This document shows positions 38,114 to 45,365 of a DNA stretch of 64,000 nucleotides, one piece after another; the stretch's first letter is position 1, and each line of letters opens with the position of its first letter. A model generated the notes under the pieces. It worked only from the letters and a program-made list of their open reading frames with translations. It did not search any database and had not been told where the DNA came from. The position numbers and the translations under genes were made by a program. Source of the DNA: Clostridia bacterium (lineage in GTDB: Bacteria > Bacillota > Clostridia > Oscillospirales > CAG-382); assembly GCA_017560085.1 (NCBI GenBank), contig JAFYPA010000003.1, positions 1 to 64,000 of the forward strand. Direction: 5' to 3'.

Positions 38114-38128
38114 TTTTTTGAAAAATAT

Positions 38129-38200
38129 AATCCTCCCGTCATATTTTTGCAAGGCACGGAATATAGTGTGCTACAGAGCAAAAGTAATTTCGGGAGGATT
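38129..38200 (+). promoter_or_regulatory. inverted repeat that can hide the ribosome binding site
   Basis: AATCCTCCCG (38129-38138) is the exact reverse complement of CGGGAGGATT (38191-38200), which contains the ribosome binding site of the DUF4830-like gene (ATG 38205). The loop is 52 bases. It may regulate translation, or, because T-runs follow, terminate the upstream Gfo/Idh transcript. Confidence 0.6.
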
Positions 38201-38204
38201 TTTT

Positions 38205-38729
38205 ATGTTTGTTTATTCGCTTAAGGCTTCCAGAATAAAGCTTCTGGGGCTCAGCCTTCTTTGTGCGGTGGTGCTTGGGTCCGCACTTGCATATCTTTTC
38301 CACGGGGGAAATGCTCCGGAGCTGTCTCTTGCGGCGGCGCAGGGGCGGGAAATCCGTTTTGACGGGATAAAGACGGATGAGGATCTGTACAGATTCGTGC
38401 AGTCGCTCGGTATTGAAATCAAGACGCCTGCGTACAACAAGGCGGAGGTTGATCTTCCGAGGGTTTTCGATGCGGTTTACAACAAGTACAACGCCATTCA
38501 GAAGCAGCAGGGCTTCGACCTTACAAAGTACTGCGGAAAGACGCTTCGGAGGTATACCTTTGAGGTTACCAATTATCCTCTTGCTCAGCACGGAATAAAT
38601 GACGGAGCGAAGGTATATCTTACGGTTTTCGTGCACAAGAGCAAGGTTGTGGGCGGTGATATCTCCTGCCGTGAGGGTGGCGGTCTTGTAACTACCTTCG
38701 TTGACTTTATTCCCACGGAAAAGCTGTAA
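38205..38729 (+). CDS. DUF4830-like membrane-anchored protein
   Basis: 174 residues from the ATG at 38205, preferred over upstream starts because of the adjacent GGGAGG. One N-terminal membrane helix (about 15-33: LLGLSLLCAVVLGSALAYLF) and an extracytoplasmic globular part. DDLYRFVQSLG-like and YEVTNYP-like segments resemble DUF4830 proteins of Clostridia, function unknown. Ends with a terminator shared with the converging P-type-like gene. Confidence 0.72.
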   Translation: MFVYSLKASRIKLLGLSLLCAVVLGSALAYLFHGGNAPELSLAAAQGREIRFDGIKTDEDLYRFVQSLGIEIKTPAYNKAEVDLPRVFDAVYNKYNAIQKQQGFDLTKYCGKTLRRYTFEVTNYPLAQHGINDGAKVYLTVFVHKSKVVGGDISCREGGGLVTTFVDFIPTEKL

Positions 38730-38739
38730 ATACAAAAGC

Positions 38740-38773
38740 ATCCCGACTGACGGAAAATCAGTCGGGATTTTGT
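38740..38773. terminator. bidirectional terminator
   Basis: ATCCCGACTGA (38740-38750) pairs with TCAGTCGGGAT (38758-38768), then TTTTG; A-rich on the other side. Confidence 0.85.
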
Positions 38774-38774
38774 G

Positions 38775-41237
38775 TTACTTATTGAAATAGGATACTGCCG
38801 CTACGGGAATGAGCCAGAACAGCTGGATGATAAGACAGAAGGTGATATCAAGTGAGCCGTTGGTTATCATCATAAGTGCGGAGAGGGCTGCGCACATAAC
38901 TGCGCTTATGATTTTTATTACGTTGTTTATCTTTACGTTTCTTCCCGTTCTCTCGCAGATAAGGAGCATTTCAAGGAAATTGTGTACGCTTCCGAGGGCG
39001 ATAACGCCTGAGCTTACCTTTGTCTTTACTGCGGGAATGTCGCTTGCACTGTTGCCCTTGATTACGCTAAGAGCATAGTTTGCTTTTTCAAGACCACCGA
39101 ATACGAGGTCGTTGTTGATACAAGGGTCGAGGGTCTTTACGCCTACGCAGAGGTTTGCGTCGTGAAGCTCACGGAGTGTCTTTTCGAAGGAGGGATTCAT
39201 GGAATACTTTATGTAGAACTTTGCGAGTATTCTGCCGCCGCATACCATAAAGAGGATGCTTCCGTGGGACTGCTCGAAGGAGGAGTCGGCACTGTCCGTG
39301 ATGATTCTTATGCCGTTTGCACCGAGATAGGAGGCTGTTGCAAGGCATACGTCTCTGCCGTCAACATTTACCTCGATTGCATCGGGATATACCTTTACGA
39401 GCTTCACCTCGGAGCTCTGGCTCTTGGTGTCTACTATCTTTGTGAAGATTTTTGAGAGCGGTCCGCCGATTTTTCCGTAAATCTTGGACATTATGATAAC
39501 CGCTTCGTCAAGTGCCATACCGCCGTAGGTTTTGATGATGGAGATTCTTACATCCTTGGGGAGGAACACCTCTGTGTCCTCAAAGGCTACTACGGAAAGT
39601 CCCTTGTATTCCTCGCTGGCGTTCTGACCGATGAGGGTTGCGTTAATGCTCTTGCCGAGCTTTGTTGCGATGAACTTGGGAAGTGCGGATATGAAGAAGG
39701 TGTTTATCGGAATGGAGGAAACGAGAATGATTGTGAGCCCCGTCATACCTGCGTAAATCTTTTCGGAAATGCTGATATCCGTTGTGAATACCGCAACGAA
39801 GATACCTACGAGCAATGCGATAATTGCGAGGATGAATGTCATTTTACCGAGCTTCTTTTCGTCCTCGGGTCTCTTGTCGTTTCTGCCTACGAAGCCCTCG
39901 TAAACGGAGCCCTTGCATACGGAGATTACCTTTGCCTTTTCAAGGTTTATGTGGGAGGCGAAGGGACTGCATTCAAGGGAGTTCGTTCCGAGCTCGTATG
40001 CGCCGTATTTATTGGAAACGGAGGAGGCTATTCTGTAGGCCTTGTCGTCTGCGCTGGCGCGGAGATAGTTATATACCGCAAGAGCGAGTATTGAGAGGCA
40101 TCCCATACAGCAGAACATATTTACCTTTACGGAGCTTGCAAGAATTACTGTTATGATTGCGTGAAGCGTACAAACGGTAAACACCGTAAGAGTGCAGGAT
40201 GCGGGGGAGAATCTTCTGTCAAGTGCGGACCAGAAGCCCTGAACGAGGCTGTCAAGCACGCATATTGCGGAGAAGCACATAACCTGAAGGTCTATAAGTG
40301 CCACGAAGGCGGGATTGTTACGAGCACTGAGGAATGAAGGAAGCGAGAATGTTCCCGCAATGCCGAGCTCAAGGTAGAGGCCGACAAGAAGGAAGAATGC
40401 CGCTCCGACAAGGGAGATGAGTGCACGGCACTTCTTGAGGTAGTAGTGTCTCTGTCCCTCGTTTACCGCGTCGGGGTCTGCCATATTGATTTCCTCGTAT
40501 GCGCCGAGCTCCTTGGCTATTTTGTTGTGCTCGGACTTCTTCTTTTTGCGTTCCTTTTCCGTCTCTTCGTCATCGTCATCGGTGGAAAGTCCGAAGAGCT
40601 TTCCGAGGGAGCTGTTGACGTCGGGCTGCTTTGATGCGGGCGCGGAGCTGTCGCTCTCTGTTTCCTTTGCTTCGGGTGTGTTGTCGCCCTCGAAGTCGTC
40701 AAAGTTTATTTCGCCGCTGTCTGCGTCATCCTCGGCAGGCTTTGCCTTGGGGGCGGGAGTGTATATCTTGGTGTCGTCGTCTTCCTCTGTGTCCTCTGCC
40801 TCGAAGGTGTCCTCCTCGTGGATGTCGGAGGGAGTGTCTGCCTCTTCCTCCTCGGCTTCCTCGGCGTCCGCGTTTTCTGCGGTTATGATGTCGCTTTGGA
40901 TTTCCCCGGAGTTTTCACCGTCGTCCTCGGAGAAGGGGATTTCCGCATCTGATTCGGATTCCTCCGCTTCTTCGATGGGGAGCTCCTCCTCTGTGGGCTC
41001 CTGCGCCGTTTCTTCCTCGGCAGGCTTATCCTTTTCGGAGGAGTCGTTCAGAATGTTATCAAGCCAAGCAAGGTTTTCCGCGTGGGAATCCTCGAATATT
41101 TTATCAAGATTTTTCATTGCATCGTCAAACTTGTTTGATGCACCTTCTGTGCTTTTGGGAGTGCCGATGTCGTCGAGTATGCTGTCAATGGTAACGGAGC
41201 TCTTGGTGCTTTCCGATGCATTTGAGTTGTTCTGCAT
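38775..41237 (-). CDS. P-type ATPase-like membrane protein lacking the phosphorylation aspartate
   Basis: 820 residues. Residues 1-250 are acidic, Glu/Asp/Ser-rich and probably disordered. Hydrophobic helices lie at about 271-295, 312-330, 350-366, 372-390, 465-485, 495-520 and two at the end (775-815). The order matches the P-type ATPase core: a membrane Pro (SSIP, 507-510) and a LPKFIATKLGKSI stretch, then SVVAFEDTEVFLP at 548-560 where the family has the DKTGT phosphorylation loop. Here the Asp is replaced by Glu and the loop by DTEV. The P-domain TGDN is replaced by KTLDP (701-705) and GDGxND is not found, while the region SSGVIALGS then CERTGRNVKINN mirrors the usual end of the P-domain. 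It looks like a non-catalytic relative (inference). It starts 50 bases after rlmB and is probably co-transcribed. Confidence 0.72.
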   Translation of the reverse strand: MQNNSNASESTKSSVTIDSILDDIGTPKSTEGASNKFDDAMKNLDKIFEDSHAENLAWLDNILNDSSEKDKPAEEETAQEPTEEELPIEEAEESESDAEIPFSEDDGENSGEIQSDIITAENADAEEAEEEEADTPSDIHEEDTFEAEDTEEDDDTKIYTPAPKAKPAEDDADSGEINFDDFEGDNTPEAKETESDSSAPASKQPDVNSSLGKLFGLSTDDDDEETEKERKKKKSEHNKIAKELGAYEEINMADPDAVNEGQRHYYLKKCRALISLVGAAFFLLVGLYLELGIAGTFSLPSFLSARNNPAFVALIDLQVMCFSAICVLDSLVQGFWSALDRRFSPASCTLTVFTVCTLHAIITVILASSVKVNMFCCMGCLSILALAVYNYLRASADDKAYRIASSVSNKYGAYELGTNSLECSPFASHINLEKAKVISVCKGSVYEGFVGRNDKRPEDEKKLGKMTFILAIIALLVGIFVAVFTTDISISEKIYAGMTGLTIILVSSIPINTFFISALPKFIATKLGKSINATLIGQNASEEYKGLSVVAFEDTEVFLPKDVRISIIKTYGGMALDEAVIIMSKIYGKIGGPLSKIFTKIVDTKSQSSEVKLVKVYPDAIEVNVDGRDVCLATASYLGANGIRIITDSADSSFEQSHGSILFMVCGGRILAKFYIKYSMNPSFEKTLRELHDANLCVGVKTLDPCINNDLVFGGLEKANYALSVIKGNSASDIPAVKTKVSSGVIALGSVHNFLEMLLICERTGRNVKINNVIKIISAVMCAALSALMMITNGSLDITFCLIIQLFWLIPVAAVSYFNK

Positions 41238-41287: not shown

Positions 41288-42238
41288 TTACTTGCAGTCT
41301 CTCTGCTTGATAGCCTCATACAGCAGCACTGCCGCCGCCGTTGAAACATTGAGCGAGTTTACCTTGCCCTTCATGGGGATGGAAACGATAAAGTCGGAGT
41401 TTTTCTTTACGATATCCGAAACGCCGTTTTCTTCGCTTCCGAGAACAATTGCACAGGGGCAGTCGTAGTCGGCATCGGTGTAGCTTGTGCCGTCGGCCTC
41501 CGCAGCGAAAATCCAGAAGCCGAGGTCCTTGAGCTTTCTTATTGTGTCGCTGATGTTGGAGCACTTAACTGCCGCAATATGCTCTGTTGCTCCTGCGGAT
41601 GCCTTTACAACAGCGGGAGTGATGCCTGCCGCACGTCTCTTGGGGAGTATGATTCCGTGAGCGCCCGCGCCCTCGGCACATCTTATAATCGCACCGAGAT
41701 TGTGGGGGTCGGAGATGCCGTCGCAGATTACGATAAGGGGCTTTTCGCCTCTTTCCTCTGCGATTGCGATAACATCCTCAAGGGAAACGTATTCCATTTC
41801 GGAGGCAATTGCAACGATGCCCTGATGCTGCTCGTAGCCGCAAAGAGCGTCAAGCTTTTTCTTGTCCGTTTCGATTACGGGAATGCCTCTTTCTATTGCC
41901 TGGGCAACAAGTACGGTGATTGAGCCCTCTCTGTCGCCCTCTCTTACGAAGATTTTTTCTATGTCACGGCCTGACTTCAGAAGCTCTCTTACCGCGTTTC
42001 TGCCGGGAATTGAGCCGTTGGAAAGCTCCTCCTCGTATCCGCCGTTTTCCTTTGCGGGACGCTCGGAATATGTATTTCTGCCGCCTTTTCCCGTGTCCTT
42101 TCTGAAGTTGTCCTTTTTAAAGCTGTCCTTTTTATATCCGTCTTTTTTGAAGCCGTCCTTCTTAAAGCCATCCTTTTTGAAGCTTCTGTCGGATGAGCCT
42201 TTTCCGTAGGGCTTTTTTTCTTTATACTTATCGTTCAC
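41288..42238 (-). CDS. rlmB: RlmB-type 23S rRNA 2'-O-methyltransferase with repeat N-terminus
   Basis: 316 residues, GTG start. Residues 20-49 are six FKKDG-type pentads (FKKDG, FKKDG, FKKDG, YKKDS, FKKDN, FRKDT). After a linker comes the substrate-binding domain (about 78-150) and the SpoU/TrmH knot domain: DPHNLGAIIRCAEGAGAHGIILPKR, VLGSEENGVSD, IPMKGKVNSLNVSTAAAVLLYE. It methylates G2251 of 23S rRNA by homology. The basic extension is unusual and recurs in the flavin reductase at 44208. Spelled rlmB by domain match; a TrmH paralogue is a less likely alternative. Confidence 0.88.
   Translation of the reverse strand: MNDKYKEKKPYGKGSSDRSFKKDGFKKDGFKKDGYKKDSFKKDNFRKDTGKGGRNTYSERPAKENGGYEEELSNGSIPGRNAVRELLKSGRDIEKIFVREGDREGSITVLVAQAIERGIPVIETDKKKLDALCGYEQHQGIVAIASEMEYVSLEDVIAIAEERGEKPLIVICDGISDPHNLGAIIRCAEGAGAHGIILPKRRAAGITPAVVKASAGATEHIAAVKCSNISDTIRKLKDLGFWIFAAEADGTSYTDADYDCPCAIVLGSEENGVSDIVKKNSDFIVSIPMKGKVNSLNVSTAAAVLLYEAIKQRDCK
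42095..42181 (-). repeat. degenerate 15-base tandem repeat encoding FKKDG
   Basis: Six imperfect 15-base units inside the 5' end of rlmB, each coding for F/Y-K-K/R-D-x. The frame is preserved in every unit. Confidence 0.75.
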
Positions 42239-42478
42239 TGAGGTTTACGTTCCTTTCTGTGAAATGCGGATTATGCCGAGAAAGCATAGTTACCGAATCT
42301 AATTTTATACTTTACTATTATAACATACTTTTTTCGATTTGTACATAACAATTTCTTCAATGTTTACAATAATTTACAATTACTGCAAATTTTCGGCATA
42401 ATCTCGGCAATTTATGGCGGATTTTGTCGAAGCCTCAAGGAAAAATTCCGTCTGTGAAGGCGAAAAAGGCAAAAAAGA

Positions 42479-42522: not shown

Positions 42523-43356
42523 TCAGAATTCTACCGTGAGTCCGTCGTATGCTGCGATAAAGCCGAGCTTTTCAGCCTCCGCTTCAAGCTCCTCTCTTGT
42601 GCCTCCGCAGTTGTGACAAAGGTGGGTGATTACCCATTTTGTGTCCTTGTCGCAGAGACCCAAATCGCAGAGCATTTGCTTTGTGTCGCTGCACGCCTTG
42701 AAGTTCATATGGAATCTGTCGCCCGAATTGAAGCCGTTTGTACAGTCGAAGGAAACAAGGTCGAGGTGCTTACCGCAATTTTTCAGATATTCCACAGTTT
42801 CCGCAGGAAGTCTTCCCGTGTCGTTTGCGTAGAAGATTGCCTTGCCGTCCTTTTCGATGATAAAGAGAACGGGGTCTGTATTCGGTGAGTGGTCGGCTCT
42901 TACGGGAGTGATGTCATATCCTTCCGCAGAGAAGGGCTCAAATGCCTTTATGAGATTTGCCGTAACTCTGTCGTCCTCAATTTCGTTGTTTTTGATAAGT
43001 GCGGCGATTTTTTCGTAGCCTACGCTTGTTGCGTAGAAGTCCAGCGGTGTGCCTTCGTTGTCAAGGATGGGGCTTACCGCCTTTTTTCTTGCCCAGATGT
43101 CACTTGTATAGAGGTGGTCACCGTGGGAATGGGTGACTATACAGGCGTGAATGCTCTGAAGATCAAGTCCGCCGTGGACTATGTGCATAAAGGTGTCGGG
43201 CGGAAAATCAACAAGAATTTTGTCGTCTATAAGAGCCTGATTTCTGCTTCTTATGTCTCTGCCGCCGTTTTTGATTGCGCTCTGACAAACGGGACACTTG
43301 CAGAAAAGAGAGGGAATACCCTCGGATGCGCCTGTGCCGAGATATTTGATTTTCAT
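42523..43356 (-). CDS. MBL-fold metallo-hydrolase 1 (PhnP-like)
   Basis: 277 residues. MKIKYLGTGASEGIPSLFCKCPVCQSA opens as in the PhnP/RNase Z-like branch with the zinc-binding CKCPVC element; VTHSHGDHLYTSD is the HxHxDH motif; DYNxTGR-like FYANDTGRLP, and VITHLCHNCGG at the C-terminus. PhnP-type enzymes cleave cyclic phosphate esters; the present substrate is unknown. It follows a paralogue (43384) by 27 bases. Strong ribosome binding site AAGGAG. Confidence 0.88.
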   Translation of the reverse strand: MKIKYLGTGASEGIPSLFCKCPVCQSAIKNGGRDIRSRNQALIDDKILVDFPPDTFMHIVHGGLDLQSIHACIVTHSHGDHLYTSDIWARKKAVSPILDNEGTPLDFYATSVGYEKIAALIKNNEIEDDRVTANLIKAFEPFSAEGYDITPVRADHSPNTDPVLFIIEKDGKAIFYANDTGRLPAETVEYLKNCGKHLDLVSFDCTNGFNSGDRFHMNFKACSDTKQMLCDLGLCDKDTKWVITHLCHNCGGTREELEAEAEKLGFIAAYDGLTVEF

Positions 43357-43383: not shown

Positions 43384-44211
43384 TCAGAATTCTATGGAAA
43401 GACCGTCGTAGGAAACAACAAAGCCGTATTCCTTTGCCTTTTCGCAGAGCTCCTCGTGGGTTGCACCGCCGTTGTGGCTGAAGTGGTTTACAACGAAAAT
43501 TGTCTTGTCGTCGCAAAGCCCCCACTTTATGAGCATTTCCTTTACCTCGGCGTTTTCCTTAATGCCCATATGGTTTCCTCTGTAGTCGAGAAATACGTTT
43601 GTGCAGTCGAAGGAAACAAGGTCAAAGTGCTTACCGCAGCTTTTGAGATATTCGACGGTTATTTCGGGGTATGTGCCCGTATCGTTTGAATAAAGAACCG
43701 CCTTGCCGTCCTTTTCGATTATGTAGAATACGGGAGTGGTTTGCGGTCCGTGGTCGGCACGCAGAGGAGTGATTGTGTAGCCCTCCGCCGTGAAGGGCTT
43801 GAATTCCTCGACGAGATGACATCTTACACGGCTTTCGGGGACACCGTCGGTCTTGCATCTTTCGGTTGCCATTTCGTAGCCTGATCTGGTAAGGTACATA
43901 TCAAGCGGGATTTCGGGGATGTTGTTTCCGATGCCCGGATTTCTGCACCAGAGCTCGCGCTCGTAGAGGTGGTCCATATGGCTGTGGGTTACAATGCAGG
44001 TGTGTATGTCCTCAAGCGGAAGTCCGTGGTTGAGGGCGTGCATATATGTGTCCGCGGGGAAATCAATCAGGATTTTGTCGTCTATAAGCGCCTGGCTTCT
44101 GGTTTTAATTTCCTTGCCCTTTACCTTTCTTGCGTTTTCGCAGACTCTGCATTTGCAGAAAAGTCCGGGAATACCCTCAGCCGCCGCTGTGCCGTAGTAG
44201 GTGATTTTCAT
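43384..44211 (-). CDS. MBL-fold metallo-hydrolase 2 (tandem paralogue)
   Basis: 275 residues, collinear with the next gene: MKITYYGTAAAEGIPGLFCKCRVCENA, VTHSHMDHLYERE (HxHxDH kept), LYSNDTGTYPE, FVVNHFSHNGG. By eye about half the residues are shared between the copies, so this is an old tandem duplication rather than a recent one. Start ATG overlaps the TGA of the flavin reductase gene by 4 bases (ATGA), coupling translation. Confidence 0.88.
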   Translation of the reverse strand: MKITYYGTAAAEGIPGLFCKCRVCENARKVKGKEIKTRSQALIDDKILIDFPADTYMHALNHGLPLEDIHTCIVTHSHMDHLYERELWCRNPGIGNNIPEIPLDMYLTRSGYEMATERCKTDGVPESRVRCHLVEEFKPFTAEGYTITPLRADHGPQTTPVFYIIEKDGKAVLYSNDTGTYPEITVEYLKSCGKHFDLVSFDCTNVFLDYRGNHMGIKENAEVKEMLIKWGLCDDKTIFVVNHFSHNGGATHEELCEKAKEYGFVVSYDGLSIEF

Positions 44212-45365
44212 TTCTTATACTCCTTTTTATAGGGCTTTTTGGAGTCCTTTTTATAGTCGGATTTGTAGTCCTTCTTGAATCCGTCTTTCTTGAAATCTCT
44301 GCCCGAATCCTTTTTGAAGCCGTCTTTTTTGAAGTCCTTTTTGTAATCCTTCTTGAAGTCGGAATCCTTGCCGTAGGGCTTTCTGTCGCTCTTCTTATCG
44401 GAGTAGCTGTCCTTTTTGCCGTAGGGCTTCTTTTCGTATGCCTTCTTTTCGTAAGGCTGCTTGTCGCTCTTGCGGTAGGGCTTGTCGGAGTAGGACTTGC
44501 GGTCGGATTTGTAATCCTTCTTTTCTCTTGTGTCGTTGGTGCTCTTGCGGGGATAGCCCTTCTTTGCTTCGGTGGGCTTTTCGGGGATTGCTTCCTCGGG
44601 GATATCCGTCTCCATATCCTTTTCAATGTCCTTTATGATATCGTCAAGAATAAGCTCGCCCATGCCCTTGTCTGCGGTGTCCAATTCGATTTCGGCAAGG
44701 GGGATTTCCTTCTTGATTTTTACTGTGTCGGCGGAGGCTTTTCTTGCTTCCTTTTTTGCTTCCTTCTTGGCTTCCGCCTTCTTTTTGCTGTTCTTCTTTT
44801 CTGCAGAGAAGCCGAAGTTGCCTATTCTCTTACCGAGTGCATAATATTCACCGTGGGCGAATGCCATAAGTCCCGCCTTGTCGAGTCTGAGCTTGCCCTC
44901 GCTGTCAATGATGCTTTCCTCAACGCCCGTGCAGAGGATGTCTGCGATGAACATATCGTGTGTGCCCATTTCCACAACGTCCGTAACTCTGCACTCAAGG
45001 GACAGAGGACAGCCGACAATCACGGGGGCGTTTACCTCGCTTGCCGTTTCTGTCAGAAGCTCACATTTTTCGAATTTGTTAACCTTCGCTCCCGTGAACA
45101 TACCGCAGTAGTCCACCGCCTTTACCATAGCCGCTGTGGGGATGTTGATTACGAATTCGCCGCTGTTTTTTATGATGTCGTAGGAATATCTGCCCTTTCT
45201 TACGGAAATGTAGGTCTTGGGCGGTACGGTGTTGAGTATTCCCGTCCACGCAACCGTGAAAACGTTTTCCGCTTCCATTCCGTTTCTGTCTGTTCCTTTG
45301 CAGGTGATGAGTACTGCGGGCATAGGCGCGAGAAGTGTGCCGCCCTTCCAGATTTGCTTTGCCAT
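44208..45365 (-). CDS. flavin reductase-like protein with long basic low-complexity tail
   Basis: 385 residues. Residues 1-190 are a complete flavin reductase/FMN-binding split-barrel domain: PAVLITCKG, NVFTVAWTGILNTVPPKTYISVRKGRYSYDII in parts, GEFVINIPT, MGTHDMFIADI, and HGEYYALGKRIGNFGFS, common in small Clostridial flavoproteins. Residues 190-385 are a Lys-rich linker, a short acidic segment (about 240-262) and a tail full of KKD and FKKDG units. The tail resembles the RlmB N-terminal extension. The enzyme would reduce flavin with NAD(P)H; the tail may bind RNA or acidic partners (inference). Confidence 0.83.
   Translation of the reverse strand: MAKQIWKGGTLLAPMPAVLITCKGTDRNGMEAENVFTVAWTGILNTVPPKTYISVRKGRYSYDIIKNSGEFVINIPTAAMVKAVDYCGMFTGAKVNKFEKCELLTETASEVNAPVIVGCPLSLECRVTDVVEMGTHDMFIADILCTGVEESIIDSEGKLRLDKAGLMAFAHGEYYALGKRIGNFGFSAEKKNSKKKAEAKKEAKKEARKASADTVKIKKEIPLAEIELDTADKGMGELILDDIIKDIEKDMETDIPEEAIPEKPTEAKKGYPRKSTNDTREKKDYKSDRKSYSDKPYRKSDKQPYEKKAYEKKPYGKKDSYSDKKSDRKPYGKDSDFKKDYKKDFKKDGFKKDSGRDFKKDGFKKDYKSDYKKDSKKPYKKEYKK
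44211..44357 (-). repeat. tandem repeat encoding KKD/FKKDG tail
   Basis: The 3' end of the flavin reductase gene codes for residues 337-385, made of repeated (F/Y)KKD(G/S) units, the same unit type as in the rlmB 5' end at 42095-42181. Confidence 0.72.

Follow-up and report, generated by a model that had tools for sequence, protein, structure and literature searches.

A predicted pseudo-pump of P1B-type descent conserved next to rlmB in an order of gut bacteria

P-type ATPases are textbook pumps and are defined by a phosphorylated aspartate. The window analysed here, a stretch of 64,000 nucleotides from a Clostridia bacterium (contig JAFYPA010000003.1), contains a long open reading frame, here called X, which an earlier note made from the letters of the DNA had described as a P-type-ATPase-shaped protein with dead catalytic motifs, unexpectedly placed next to rlmB. 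What kind of protein is this, where does it come from and what could it do beside an rRNA methyltransferase gene? The parts of X to which the following arguments refer are listed below.

38775..41237, minus strand: X, open reading frame with an ATG start, 820 aa, a pseudo-P1B-ATPase as judged from orthologues and profile identity
40473..41237, minus strand: acidic, low-complexity N-terminal region, residues 1-255, with 83 D/E and 21 K/R
41166..41189, minus strand: N-terminal short linear motif IDSILDDI, residues 17-24; its family form is hydrophobic-D-[DES]-I-L-x-E
40056..40439, minus strand: membrane segments 1-4, residues 267-394, from family mean hydropathy; aligned with the first four P1B helices
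39867..40055, minus strand: shrunken remnant of the actuator domain, residues 395-457, from hhalign and the family alignment
39666..39866, minus strand: membrane segments 5-6, residues 458-524, from hhalign, column counts and hydropathy; P510 (the Pro of CPC) and P520 are kept
38943..39650, minus strand: degenerate P/N domain, residues 530-765, from hhalign and the alignment to 3rfu
39561..39584, minus strand: dead form of motif I, residues 552-559 (FEDTEVFL), aligned in register with the P1B DKTGT strand, from hhalign and column counts
39123..39137, minus strand: KTLDP, residues 701-705, in register with TGDN, from hhalign and column counts
38778..38942, minus strand: membrane segments 7-8, residues 766-820, including the conserved W808, from hydropathy and column counts

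As a single sequence, X gave no useful match in Pfam, NCBIfam or the PDB, and as it is invisible to single-sequence searches of Pfam and NCBIfam it is probably annotated as a hypothetical protein. AlphaFold models built from two sequences reached a pLDDT of 32-34. A family profile was made from an alignment of 27 X orthologues and compared by hhalign with active P-type ATPases, meaning DKTGT-bearing ATPases from the genome of the window and from its relatives. Against the pooled active set the match had a probability of 99.5 (E 3.8e-23, 535 columns), whereas reversed-profile controls, run against this pooled set and not against P1B alone, reached 0.2-0.3%. As, in addition, an hmmsearch of the PDB with the X profile led to copper ATPases (Legionella CopA, 3rfu, E 5.1e-20), the relation to P-type ATPases lies far beyond chance. 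Against 23 active P1B ATPases the hhalign probability was 99.6 (E 5e-24, 543 columns), and against the six P2 ATPase sequences only 5%, so that no P2-type similarity was found. The heavy-metal ATPase model TIGR01525 of NCBIfam matches 18 of the 27 members (best 1.7e-11), and the mean hydropathy of the X family predicts eight membrane segments in the order of P1B pumps, four followed by the A domain, two followed by the P/N domain and a final two. These comparisons show X to be a degenerate P1B-type (CopA-like) ATPase, a predicted pseudo-pump, and the shape proposed in the earlier note, together with the profile-profile check that it had suggested, was borne out. With TIGR01525 proteins and 3rfu, X has in common a homologous membrane core and P/N head with the 4+2+2 segments and, at the family level, the proline of the CPC helix, the Thr and Asp of TGD and the glycines of the N domain. 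It differs from them in being without the CPC cysteines, the TGE loop, DKTGT, the histidine of HP and GDGxND, in its shrunken actuator domain, and in carrying a long acidic N-terminal region instead of a metal-binding domain.

How complete the loss of the catalytic motifs is was read from column counts over 77 non-redundant members of the X family. DKTGT occurs in none of the 77. In the window the loop is replaced by FEDTEVF (residues 552-558, 39564-39584), which hhalign places in register with the DKTGT strand, as had been proposed, so that E553 stands at the position of the phosphorylated aspartate. Of the 77 members, 21 have D at this position, 17 have A, 12 have S and 10 have T. GDGxND is likewise found in none of the 77 members and is missing together with its strand, also in the X of the window, in agreement with the earlier note. 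The replacement of TGDN by KTLD is right in register, but it is not a full loss, as T702 and D704 retain the T and the D of TGD and only the G and the N are gone; position 702 is T or S in 65/77 members and D704 is kept in 75/77. In the actuator, the TGES/TGE stretch of P1B falls on a gap of the X profile alignment (hhalign), and TGE strings occur in 8/77 members in a plain string count that takes no account of alignment position. Position 592, that of the histidine in HP, is G, S or C in 69/77 members, and P593 and L594 are mostly kept. The N-domain glycines at 620 and 633 are kept in 74-75 of the 77 members; both positions are Ala in the X of the window. Because the catalytic motifs are lost, it follows from established P-type chemistry that X would be unable to form an aspartyl phosphate and hence to run the aspartyl-phosphate pumping cycle.

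An acidic cluster nevertheless persists at the old active site. D554, which aligns with the Lys of DKTGT, is found in 62/77 members and position 556 is acidic in 70/77; together with T/S702 and D704 one could read this as a shifted HAD-type site, with D554-x-[DE]556 as DxD and T702 as motif II, which would make X an altered enzyme, a phosphatase or a phosphotransferase. We regard this as very improbable, since the strand and loop of HAD motif IV, which is GDGxND, are missing in 77/77 members and the combination of DxD with motif IV was not found. Moreover, many members lack D554 and many lack D553, and X has F/Y where HAD enzymes have T/V.

The membrane core is the conserved core of P1B pumps, and P510, P520, W808 and P811 are among its conserved residues. 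The CPC proline P510 is kept in 61/77 members and W808 in 70/77. Such a conserved P1B core would be expected of a membrane receptor whose former transport site still binds a non-copper ion or a small ligand and whose head passes the signal on, in the manner of a transceptor without transport. However, the cysteines flanking P510 are rare in the family and both are absent in the X of the window, no conserved charged metal ligand in the membrane segments stands out among the 40 best-conserved positions, and no signalling domain is attached to X, so that we hold this explanation to be unlikely, albeit the least unlikely of the alternatives weighed here.

Is X then simply the wreck of a pump? A profile search across the host order of gut bacteria detected it in 114 of 118 sampled genomes, with an internal stop in two matches of this survey, and by tblastn the gene was present in 34 of 40 relatives. 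The 16 loci inspected among the best class-level matches from outside the order were all ordinary ATPases with DKTGT. The members form one clade apart from P1B (SH-aLRT 100, obtained with a quick tree method and with long branches). That the relatives are dead as well, with DKTGT in 0/77, means that X is not a recent degradation, and the phylogenetic check named in the earlier note finds the dead motif conserved. The dN/dS of the core is about 0.10 when compared with a copy from the same genus, a value which is approximate because dS is near saturation. By these data X is under purifying selection and has long been kept as a single gene, and it is not a recent wreck. A dispensable relic, drifting without function and kept only by the rlmB transcription unit, would account for the quick divergence between families, where identity is 15-29%. 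It is scarcely credible, however, given that many families are represented and the frame is open in almost every genome, that dN/dS is low, and that D704, W808, G620 and G633 are conserved, as is the topology.

The second part of the question concerns the locus, whose further elements are the following.

42317..42345, minus strand: promoter-like site upstream of rlmB, TGTACA-17-TATAAT with TG, from a consensus scan only
41288..42238, minus strand: rlmB, SpoU-family rRNA 2'-O-methyltransferase (Pfam SpoU_methylase 9.7e-44, SpoU_sub_bind 1.6e-20)
38740..38768, readable on both strands (convergent genes): strong terminator-like hairpin 3' of X, 12-pair stem and T tail

In the window rlmB lies 50 nt upstream of X on the same strand. 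Far from being unexpected, as had been thought, this is the fixed address of the X family. All 21 genomes of a first set have rlmB immediately upstream of X in the same orientation, with gaps of -4 to 111 nt. Among 62 further loci, some of them from genomes already in that set, the gap was -50 to 300 nt in 50, and the remaining 12 had either no rlmB match in the stretch covered or a negative gap caused by an over-long start choice. In the four genomes lacking X no rlmB match was better than 1e-17, whereas an ordinary orthologue gives 6e-80; this shared absence may reflect either the loss of both genes or a gap in the assembly. On the downstream side of X, the genes for EF-G and a lipoprotein are found again in part of the genomes only.

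The near-invariant order and the joint absence could suggest that X is a partner of RlmB or of ribosome assembly, tethering RlmB or nascent 50S particles to the membrane, and the basic, KKD-rich N-terminal tail of the RlmB in the window could pair with the acidic arm of X. However, operon neighbours often have expression alone in common, and the linkage to rlmB may be a matter of transcriptional convenience only. The basic tail is confined to a few related genera, and charge pairing between tail and arm found no support across 66 loci, where the charge of the RlmB tail and that of X were uncorrelated (Spearman -0.13, p 0.31). A physical partnership of this kind therefore seems quite improbable to us.

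Some other features of the neighbourhood were recorded. The convergent neighbour of X (38118-38729, plus strand) has a DUF4830 domain and an N-terminal hydrophobic segment. The N-terminal tail of RlmB (42100-42190) contains KKDGFKKD-type lysine/aspartate repeats, and a flavin-reductase-like protein (44208-45365) has repeats of the same type in its C-terminal tail (44206-44520). Two adjacent similar proteins are encoded at 42523-43356 and 43384-44211, the first of which matches Lactamase_B_2, a beta-lactamase-fold family; DNA repeats at a spacing of 861 nt within this pair suggest a tandem duplication.

X also differs from P1B pumps in its N-terminal arm. The earlier note had described the first 250 residues as acidic and had also spoken of an acidic tail; the acidity is evident in the residue counts given above, but the region is N-terminal and no tail. 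It is net acidic in 69/77 family members, with a median length of 291 aa. The short motif near its beginning lies among the first 70 residues of 26 out of 75 members, as compared with 0.5 expected in shuffles, an enrichment that is descriptive because the pattern was picked after viewing the same sequences. The motif was also considered as a docking signal used throughout the genome and rejected as such, since matches to DDILxE[FY] were the X genes themselves and chance sites. As some members (544-565 aa) are without the arm and the motif is recognisable in about a third, the arm can account for only part of what X does.

Taken as a whole, these findings are probably, in our judgement, best explained by X being a conserved pseudoenzyme of P1B descent which is made together with rlmB and serves as a non-transporting membrane platform that binds a cytosolic partner. 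Under this explanation, X would be co-expressed with rlmB and would sit in the membrane without transporting, while the partner in the cytosol would be bound by what is left of the P/N head and by the long acidic arm, which ends in a short amphipathic motif. X would then keep this partner at the membrane or regulate it there, and it might do so according to an ion or lipid state sensed by the former pump core. Its most likely role would be that of a non-transporting membrane anchor or receptor, with the arm and the N-terminal motif holding the putative partner; the earlier note had guessed at a sensor, a partner or a scaffold. As a general concept this resembles the pseudoenzymes and transceptors of other membrane protein families, in which the fold has been kept for binding or signalling after catalysis was lost.

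X is not the only dead pump of its genome. A second P-type homologue, here called Y (910 aa, L083:4017-6746), follows clpC, and orthologues of Y with DKTGT replaced are present in most genomes of the taxonomic family, usually at the end of an operon-like row of truA, a gene for a 408-aa protein, cvpA and clpC. In four genomes X and Y are roughly 18-31 kb apart. Like X, Y is a P-type homologue without DKTGT that is conserved within this taxonomic family and linked to a housekeeping gene; unlike X, it is of P2 origin, has a recognisable A domain (PF00122) and has no acidic N-terminal region. Since Y goes back to P2-type pumps (E 1.6e-85) and its clade is separate from that of X, pump function was lost at least twice. 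It is conceivable, though we consider it doubtful, that the order has twice turned pumps, X from P1B in the rlmB operon and Y from P2 in the truA-clpC operon, into a new class of non-transporting membrane receptors or tethers which couple the state of the membrane to rRNA or ribosome functions and to proteolysis.

In the open-access literature searched, no account of such a P-type ATPase family in bacteria was found; the X family, an order-wide pseudo-pump, is undescribed there. With its main catalytic elements gone and its gene still at a fixed place in nearly every genome sampled from a major order of gut bacteria, it would be a clear example of an entire pump put to a different use, and it raises the question of what the job of a P-type fold may be when transport is no longer part of it.
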